From Brachionus koreanus (Eukaryota; Rotifera; Eurotatoria; Ploima; Brachionidae), in the NCBI GenBank assembly GCA_016987375.1, contig PJRA01000403.1:62765-126764 (forward strand): a DNA stretch of 64,000 nucleotides, written 5' to 3'. Below are positions 36,383-39,300 of the stretch, piece by piece; position 1 is the stretch's first letter, and each line of letters starts with the position of its first letter. The translations under genes were made by a program, and so were the position numbers. Below the pieces are notes generated by a model. It did no database searches, had not been told where the DNA came from, and was given only the letters and a program-made list of their open reading frames with translations.

Positions 36383-39300
36383 ATGAATGGTAATGCAACT
36401 GCAATTTTAAGCAATAATGATGCCCATCATTTCAACCAAATAGAAAGACAGGTCAGTTATCTTATTTAGTTAAAATTGTGCAAAAAATATTTAAAAAAAA
36501 ATAAGAGAAAATTATAATAAAATAAAATAAATAAGTTTTGCATTCAACTTGAAAAGCACGTTGAAAAATTTAAATTTTCTCTAGTACTTTGAAAAAAAAG
36601 TTCAAAGTCAAGCCAATAACCATATAAACCCTCGTTCTCTTTAATTTAAATATCATTTAAGCTGGAAAACTTGAACATAAACCATGCTAAAGCAAACAAC
36701 GAGAGTAAGCATCTAATTGATCTTTGTTTTTGAAAAATTTATTTTTCATTAAATTTAAGAATATGTTCCGCCACACATGCGCAACTCGGAACTGCAGTCA
36801 ACACAGCAATTTTCAAGGCCACAAAATGCTTTCCAACCACAGAGAAACAACTACCAAAGAAACTTCCAAAACGGGTCTCCGTCTGGAGACATAAATAACA
36901 ACAATGCTTTGAATGGAAAAAAAAATTTCAATCCAAATCAAAGAGGCTTTCAGGGAAATCCCAATTTTGAGAGGTTAATATTTAGAATTTTATTTTTAAA
37001 CTAAAATGGAATGATGATGCATTTAAATTAACGATGTGATGCTTGAGACGATGTTGTTTGGTTTTTATTCGATGGGTTCGTGTTTTACGCACCCTTCGCG
37101 CTCTCTCTAAGCCTTGCAACTCGGTTCAAGCCCACGCTAAATAATGAGTATTTATGTCATAGTTACACTGACCATTTTTTTTTCATTAGAAATTTCACAA
37201 TTTGTTTGAAATTTTTTTCTATAAATATTTGAAAATTTTTAAAATAATTTCTTTATTAAGATTCAACAACAATTCATCAAATATGGGCTTTAACAAACAA
37301 AATAATTATAATCAAAATAGCAAGTATAATCAAGGCCAGCAAAGAAATCCTAGTCAAAGATACAACAAGAAGTAATTAAACTTTATTAAAATAAAAATAA
37401 TGTTAATCAGTGAGGAAAATTTGATTCCGCCATACGAATTTTCTAATAATGAAGACATTATTTATCCGTTCTTCTATTCTGAGATTGACTTTTTATTTTA
37501 AAAGATTGTTTTATTCTAATTTATTTCTCTCTTAGCTTTGATAACCAAAATACGGAAGCTGGTCAAAATGGGTTTAATAGTCAGCCTATGCAAAATCATG
37601 GTGGCATAATGTCTCCAGATGAGCAGAATGAATATAGACAAAATGGTTACCAAGGCAACGGGTCAAATAAATATGGCTCGAATGGTCAACGATCTTATCA
37701 GAAACACTATTCTCACAACAATCAAGACTCTAATGGAAATTTGGGCACTTCTTTGAACGAATGGGGTCGACCATTAGAACGCGATCTCGAAGTTGAAAAG
37801 TAAGGACACAATACTTTGTCTGATTTTTAAAATCGCAGGTTTTTGAGTTTTGATTGATTTTGATAATCAGTAAGCAATCGAAAATTAAACACTGCCAAAT
37901 TGTTTCGACGACTTACCCTGTGTGATTGCTTTTAAAATCGGTCAAACAGAAGAAGAATCGAAACATTTAAAAAATTCAAATTTTAAACTTTTTTGTATAA
38001 AAAATTTATTAAATATTTTTTTTAAAGGGAGCTATTTGGTACCAATCAATCGAATGGTATTAACTTTGACTCATATGATGATATACCTGTTGAAGTAACG
38101 GGAGATAGCTTGCCTAAAGCAATAAATACAGTTAGTAGCTTTTTTTTTTTGTATTATTTGTTTATGTAAGAATCAGACGAGAATTTATGATGAAAGGAGT
38201 TGAATAAAGCGCATTCACTTTGATCATTCGAAATGAAAATATTGCTCCGATCCCACTGAAATTCTTAATTTTCACTCTAAAAACATACAAATAAAAATAA
38301 TTGTTTTTTTTTTTAAGTTTGAAGAGCTCAATTTTCACGAAATAATTCAGGACAACATAAAGTTGACAAATTATTTAAAGCCTACTCCAGTGCAAAAGAA
38401 CGCTATGCCAATAATATCAAGTCGACGAGACTTAATGGCCTGTGCTCAAACTGGTAAGTGCTCGCCTAAATAAATTATCAATTTGGATTTTAATGATGAT
38501 TTGTTAGTTATCCCTGTCTTAGCCAAAGTGCTGACAAATAATTCCTCGTTTCTGACAAAATCCTTGACCAAATAAGATATGATGACACGTTTTTTGTCTT
38601 AGATTTTGCTGCTGAGACATCAGACACTTGACCTGATCTACATGTCTATCATTATAATCTCTAATTGATGTTTTAAAATTATTTTTGCCTAATTTTTGCT
38701 ATTTAACAGGTTCGGGAAAAACTGCAGCATTCTTAGTGCCTATTTTGAATCTAATATTCCAATCAGGAAACGATCAAAATTGTGTTTACATCAATAAAAG
38801 AAAAAAATTGCTGCCATTAGCTCTGGTATTGGCCCCGACCAGAGAACTTGCATTGCAGATTTACGACGAAGCCAAAAAAGTAAGTGCTAAACAAACTTAA
38901 CATTATTACTGCTTGTTATCTATGATGAAAATTTGATTCCGCCATACGAATTTTCAAATAATGAAGACACTATTCTTCCGTTCTTCTTGACTGAGATAAC
39001 ATTTTTACTTAGCTTGCATGATGATTTGTTAGTTATCCCTGTCTTAGCCAAAGTGCTGACAAATAATTCCTCGTTTCTGATATCAAGCTATTTTTCTACA
39101 AAATTAAGAGTCTTTAGTGATGACAAAGTTAAGTCAGATTAATTTATTAGAAGAAAAATATAATGATGACTTATTCTACACCCCTGATAAAGACTCCTCA
39201 ATTTTGAAAATAATCTAATAAATTTTATTTATTTAATTTTTTTATTTTCAAGTTTTCATACAGATCCAGAGTGCGTCCTTGTGTGGTCTATGGCGGCTCA

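Follow-up and report, generated by a model that had tools for sequence, protein, structure and literature searches.

Candidate box C/D snoRNAs in the introns of a rotifer DDX3-type RNA helicase gene

According to the available text of PMC11028025, the genes that host snoRNAs in animals are those for ribosome assembly, translation and RNA processing. The same text names intronic snoRNA clusters in animals, as a minority arrangement, and the available part of PMC4234469 gives 48 human snoRNAs that form pairs within single introns, also a minority arrangement. For one of the RNA families that matter here, the accessible part of PMC2780460 describes the Neurospora RNA CD23 as the equivalent of snR38, guiding 26S-Gm2773 from its D' guide.

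Here we analyze a 64-kb stretch of contig C38 of a rotifer genome assembly (83.3 Mb in 92 contigs); this whole stretch, with a GC content of 26%, is called the window below. Judging from the sequence, a DDX3-type RNA helicase gene in the window very probably serves as host to several box C/D snoRNA genes, which lie in its introns. The analysis provides candidate snoRNAs with predicted rRNA sites for a rotifer and adds DDX3 as a candidate host.

The host gene and its intronic elements

The Pfam domains DEAD and Helicase_C are found on the open reading frame 39271-40395, in the last exon of the intron-rich DDX3 gene, and a protein search with this exon gives matches named DDX3X or bel. The two closest matches have 90% (P0001) and 83% (P0002) identity; among the named ones, P0003 from a moth (64%, with 48% of the query covered) outranks the Brachionus proteins P0032 and P0033. 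The start codon, the splice joints and the exon model were read from the genomic sequence and not from a transcript. A second DDX3/bel paralogue, which has no introns, lies approximately 9 kb upstream (25257-27023, plus strand) and is 84% identical (502/596) to 'bel' of Brachionus plicatilis, which points to a Brachionus-like monogonont rotifer as the source. The two paralogues of the window share 68% identity over 335 residues, and P0001 and P0034, being relatives of the two genes, suggest that a relative has retained both. A DNA search with the intron region of DDX3 yielded no second copy and three short matches (40-92 bp). Elsewhere in the window, the open reading frames 23147-23911 (minus strand) and 48771-49376 (plus strand) read by eye like reverse transcriptase fragments, and at 22828-22950 both strands match microRNA precursor families weakly and below threshold, perhaps owing to an inverted repeat.

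Five DDX3 introns (3, 4, 6, 7 and 8) contain eight box C/D snoRNA candidates in the distribution 1+1+1+2+3 (Table 1). The first-pass annotation had placed eight in these same introns, and all are recovered at or near the places it gave; its pair in intron 7 and its triplet in intron 8 correspond to i7A/i7B and i8A/i8B/i8C. Each candidate lies wholly within an intron on the sense strand, with exon overlap in none of the eight under the exon model read from the sequence. A C box RUGAUGA and a D box CUGA near the ends are canonical in seven of the eight, the exception being i4 with its GTGAGGA. A pair-by-pair check shows a terminal stem of 7-9 bp adjoining the boxes in seven elements and of 3 bp in i7B, which is the weakest of the eight candidates. 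The immediately flanking closing stem described in the first-pass annotation is borne out in seven elements and amounts to only 3 bp in i7B, and the long stems are indeed present but exceed the maximum of 8 bp then given, since the stem of i8C measures 9 bp.

The snoRNA blocks have a GC content of 30-39%, against 18% for the rest of introns 3, 4, 6, 7 and 8 together with a stretch of intron 1. Neighbouring elements are separated by spacers of 11 nt in intron 7 and of 8 and 17 nt in intron 8, and in each intron 46-82 nt separate the final snoRNA from the 3' splice site. Intron 5 (37800-38027) has no C/D element. It contains a hairpin at 37833-37905 (plus strand) whose fold z, -2.6, is the best value among six segments (-1.9 for the whole intron). 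We rejected this hairpin as an H/ACA snoRNA, given that the H box is not in place and no H/ACA family match covers it.

Table 1. Positions in the window of the host gene, its introns, the candidate snoRNAs and related elements
Feature	Position	Strand	Details
DDX3-type RNA helicase gene (host)	36383..40395	+	last large exon 39253-40395
DDX3 intron 3	36974-37260	+	GT..AG
Candidate snoRNA i3, long box C/D	37003..37178	+	stem AAAATGG/CCATTTT, 7 bp; C 37011-37017; D 37168-37171; D guide 37156-37166
DDX3 intron 4	37372-37535	+	ends read from sequence
Candidate snoRNA i4, SNORD47-like	37402..37489	+	C box GTGAGGA (one letter altered); D 37479-37482; stem 7 bp, one G-U
DDX3 intron 5	37800-38027	+	ends read from sequence
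DDX3 intron 6	38131-38317	+	ends read from sequence
Candidate snoRNA i6	38179..38266	+	C 38187-38193; D 38256-38259; stem 7 bp, one G-U
DDX3 intron 7	38454-38709	+	ends read from sequence
Candidate snoRNA i7A, snoR38-like	38485..38563	+	C 38493-38499; D 38552-38555; stem GGATTTT/AAAATCC, 7 bp
Guides of i7A			D' guide 38506-38517, target LSU ACAGGGATAACT; D guide 38540-38550, target SSU AACGAGGAATT
Candidate snoRNA i7B	38575..38639	+	C 38579-38585; D' 38612-38615; D 38633-38636; stem 3 bp
DDX3 intron 8	38880-39252	+	ends read from sequence
Candidate snoRNA i8A, SNORD47-like	38914..39001	+	C box intact; stem TGTTATC/GATAACA, 7 bp; C 38922-38928; D 38991-38994
Candidate snoRNA i8B, snoR38-like	39010..39090	+	stem TAGCTTG/CAAGCTA, 7 bp; C 39018-39024; D 39077-39080
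Candidate snoRNA i8C	39108..39196	+	stem GAGTCTTTA/TAAAGACTC, 9 bp; C 39117-39123; C' ATGATGA 39163-39169; D 39184-39187
Ninth box C/D candidate, outside DDX3	13247-13322	+	snR56-like, 38.8 bits (gathering 54); stem 7 bp, one G-U
Tight mixed snoRNA cluster around SNORD15	contig C21, stretch L056 3244-3983	-	no coding host evident in ORF list

Family matches and predicted rRNA targets

A cmscan of 36300-39400 yields 31 matches at E<=10, a number of which are plainly chance. Within this set i7A matches snoR38 (RF00213) with 38.9 bits (E 4e-4 for 36300-39400, 0.0083 for the whole window), and i8B matches the same family with 31.0 bits (whole-window E 0.55). SNORD47 (RF00281) is matched by i4 with 34.3 bits (E 4.4e-4 for 36300-39400, 0.0091 for the whole window) and by i8A with 28.8 bits (whole-window E 0.25). 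For i6 the match is to snoR26, with 26.7 bits (E 0.064 and 1.3, respectively), and i3 has no match over its full RNA to an Rfam snoRNA family at E<=10 in the same scan. No snoRNA match attains its Rfam gathering score (45 for snoR38, 50 for SNORD47), a tRNA being the only gathering-level match in the whole window; we therefore name i7A and i8B snoR38-like, and i4 and i8A SNORD47-like.

Genome-wide, RF00213 has two matches at E<=10, with i7A as the best and i8B as the second (62 of 28,910 first-look candidates scored). RF00281 has eight, of which i4 is the best, i8A the second and a match elsewhere the third, with 26.5 bits (71 of 22,245 scored). These family searches score the best candidates only, so that absence elsewhere does not follow from them. 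The SNORD47 ranking of i8A taken by itself is weak, because the third match comes close to its score. In prokaryotic controls at E<=10, snoR38 is matched in 9 of 14 genomes and SNORD47 in 10 of 14, with none over the cut-off.

Two family assignments of i3 were tried and rejected. The best genome match to SNORD15 lies on contig C21 (46.1 bits) and i3 is absent from the seven matches; moreover, the C21 copy carries GAGGCATTTG before its D box, which pairs with a different 28S stretch, CAAATGCCTC. Likewise i3 is not among the three matches to SNORD46 at E<=10 (49 of 5,762 candidates scored), a family whose target site we take to be equal to the site predicted for i3. The SNORD15 copy on C21 possibly has both C/D and H/ACA neighbours.

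The rDNA of the species was not found in the assembly by searches with 5.8S, two rRNA patterns and an LSU stretch, as if it had been left out. Guide targets were taken from contaminant eukaryotic (protist) rDNA contigs in bacterial MAGs and from a stretch of the Rfam LSU consensus; eight such contigs were fetched and five (L016-L019 and L023) were used in the guide tests. Three exact patterns gave no eukaryotic rRNA in viral contigs, and a search of plasmids with the LSU stretch returned 411 records, with bacteria or archaea throughout the 20 matches listed.

On these targets i3 has an 11-nt guide, one base before D, that is complementary to 28S GTAACTATGAC, with 11/11 Watson-Crick pairs both in the Rfam LSU consensus and in each of the four protist LSUs covering this region. 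The D guide of i7A and i8B, again 11 nt (11/11) and one base before D, is complementary to SSU AACGAGGAATT in L018 and L023; the word GAGGAATT is missing from the SSUs of L019 and L016. Their D' guide pairs 12/12 with LSU ACAGGGATAACT in five LSU stretches, which are not independent since the pattern used to select the contigs already contained the target. The block AGUUAUCCCUGUCU is common to i7A, i8B and the RF00213 consensus. For i8C, a D guide of 15 nt (15/15) directly before D is complementary to LSU GGGTGTAGAATAAGT in the Rfam consensus only, where the letters are partly lower-case, and the target differs in the protist LSUs (8 nt in L018, a mismatched relative in L019). The LSU segment that corresponds to the SNORD47 site of i4 and i8A also differs in the protist rDNA used. 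We presume the site numbers to be A3739 and C3866 in human 28S, G2815 in yeast 25S and G1572 in yeast 18S.

Outside DDX3, the guide of the window's ninth candidate precedes an inner CTGA and forms 12 Watson-Crick pairs with SSU AACAGGTCTGTA in L018, or 13 pairs including one G-U in L019 and L023; no host gene is seen for it. In a control on L018 targets, 4 of 10 box sites score at least 11 (three distinct guides, one of them belonging to this 13-kb element), against 1 of 108 shuffled guides, with 10 of 108 reaching 10. A convincing target was found neither for i6 nor for i7B on the protist rDNA, with the cores of i4 and i7B scanned over their whole length. The 10-nt matches of i6 to LSU TCAAAGTGAA and to the species' own U2 GATCAAAGTG come without a clear D' box and were not counted. 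As a snoU2-30 guide to U2 A30, i7B was rejected: the own U2 reads GATCAAAGTG, which breaks an 8-nt match to human U2 as we presume it to read.

Background, duplicate copies and alternative explanations

The whole 64-kb window was scanned on both strands for RTGATGA followed by CTGA 45-170 nt on, with a stem score of at least 5. This strict scan yields eight matches on the plus strand and none on the minus strand, and six of the eight lie inside DDX3 introns, within 2.3 kb; these six include neither i4, with its C box GTGAGGA, nor i7B, with its 3-bp stem. In 60 Markov simulations of the window the mean is 0.33 matches and the maximum 2. Two matches, both judged to be chance, occur in 247,035 bp from 34 other stretches of the same genome, which were taken without random choice (20 from the same contig, covering 200 kb, and 14 via helicase, U2 and DNA searches) and include one, L007 with 3,555 bases, that falls inside the window. 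The word RTGATGA is found 8 times on the plus strand and never on the minus strand of introns 3-8, and 26 and 9 times in the whole window. A run of it at 58426-58495 (plus strand) is a coding repeat in the acidic tail of the open reading frame 57495-58529, which reads as leucine-rich repeats, and is a trap for C-box counts. Single candidates thus do arise from AT-rich sequence, at 2 in 247 kb or 0.33 per simulated window, but that chance motif matches would produce six within 2.3 kb, together with guide and family matches, is hardly credible. Chance is already refuted for the set as a whole, but not for i7B alone.

Differences between the duplicate copies concentrate outside the core. From C to D, i7A and i8B are identical at 63/63 positions, whereas their 30-nt flanks agree at only 10/30 and 8/30; between i4 and i8A the core is identical at 64/73 positions, the flanks agree at 12/30 and 15/30, and the stems differ. 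The first-pass annotation had noted that copies differ in their stems yet keep the pairing, and this is borne out: the stems of i7A and i8B are unrelated in sequence, each pairs over 7 bp, and only 3-4 of the 7 pairs remain when the arms are swapped between copies. Stems that have changed and stayed paired are what selection on an RNA end structure would leave. To explain a fully identical core between flanks that are unrelated, one needs strong constraint, gene conversion or a copying of the core, and the pattern alone gives no age for the duplication.

It is quite conceivable, although we do not favour it, that only a subset are working snoRNAs, with i4, i7B and perhaps also i6 being copies that decay or are not expressed. 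The altered C box of i4, the 3-bp stem of i7B and the missing convincing targets of i6 and i7B all point that way, and according to the available part of PMC12309372, mutated boxes and unstable terminal stems are seen in snoRNAs that are not expressed. On the other hand, i4, which may be a decaying copy, shares its guide with i8A and retains a stem of 7 bp that differs from the one in i8A, and i6 retains a 7-bp stem as well as canonical C and D boxes. Much less probable is an origin of the RNAs from a separate non-coding transcript, or from promoters of their own, that overlaps the helicase gene. Non-coding or independent arrays may exist in this genome, as the second cluster on C21 has no coding host evident from the ORF list. 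In DDX3, however, under the exon model read from the sequence, GT-AG introns enclose all eight elements, which are on the coding strand and leave the exons untouched, and the last element of each intron keeps a distance of 46-82 nt to the 3' splice site; we consider a separate transcript very unlikely.

Overall, the reading of DDX3 as an intronic host is upheld because of the Rfam matches, the genome-wide best matches among the scored candidates, the properly spaced guides to conserved stretches of rRNA and the background controls. As a putative intronic host of box C/D snoRNAs, DDX3 is supported for seven of the eight elements.

Predicted processing and comparison with known systems

With DDX3 as the host, the pre-mRNA would be spliced and the C and D boxes, joined by the closing stem, would be bound within the intron by C/D snoRNP proteins, as expected from the family. 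These proteins would shield the RNA while the remaining intron decays, and the resulting snoRNPs would 2'-O-methylate the rRNA nucleotide opposite the fifth base upstream of D or D'. The predicted sites are 28S GTAA*CTATGAC for i3, 28S ACAGG*GATAACT and 18S AACG*AGGAATT for i7A and i8B, 28S GGGTG*TAGAATAAGT for i8C, and the SNORD47 site in 28S for i4 and i8A. The locus poses a processing question, namely how three snoRNAs 8-17 nt apart would be released from one intron. Because the spacers measure only 8, 11 and 17 nt, trimming from the intron ends could not separate neighbours. In plant and yeast polycistrons an endonuclease cuts between the snoRNPs, and such a cut would most likely separate them here as well; fused products are the alternative.

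A coupling of snoRNA supply to a translation/RNA-helicase gene would fit the usual choice of host gene. Tight packing is not special to DDX3 in this genome, as the SNORD15 locus on C21 is another cluster. From such tight arrays (three in one DDX3 intron, the SNORD15 array on C21) one might speculate, with considerable doubt, that the lineage has moved to a plant-like polycistronic snoRNA economy. This would need an endonuclease acting between snoRNPs or else give stable fused double or triple snoRNPs. New copies would keep the core (63/63) and gain unrelated stems, as if cores spread between introns by copying at the RNA level or through a gene conversion that is limited to the core.

Compared with snoR38/snR38 (RF00213), i7A and i8B have its boxes, its size and its D' guide AGTTATCCCTGT to LSU. 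They differ in their scores (31-39 bits against a gathering score of 45), in an added D guide to 18S AACGAGGAATT and in the presence of two copies in one gene. SNORD47 (RF00281) aligns end to end with i4 and i8A, and the guide is one letter off (consensus GAUUCUGCC, here GATTCCGCC); the differences are scores of 29-34 against a gathering score of 50 and the DDX3 host.

As in the intronic clusters of animals, several snoRNAs share one intron, but here five of the eight are in two introns, with spacers of 8-17 nt and DDX3 as the host. Plant clusters resemble the locus in their tandem packing, but in the available text of PMC11028025 they are usually intergenic with one promoter of their own, whereas here the elements are intronic in a coding gene. 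The first-pass annotation had called multi-snoRNA introns plant-like and not metazoan. What stands of this is that they are uncommon in animals and that the tandem packing is shared with plants; the remainder has to be given up, given that animals are known to have such introns, according to the accessible parts of PMC11028025 and PMC4234469, and that the clusters of plants are mostly intergenic, according to the former. The same annotation knew of no report of DDX3 as a snoRNA host, which agrees with the open-licence literature, where titles and abstract starts among the matches listed give none; nor do the titles among the matches listed there give a report with rotifer snoRNAs as its main subject. 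What is new is DDX3 as a candidate host together with the new members, and the kind of RNA is well known.
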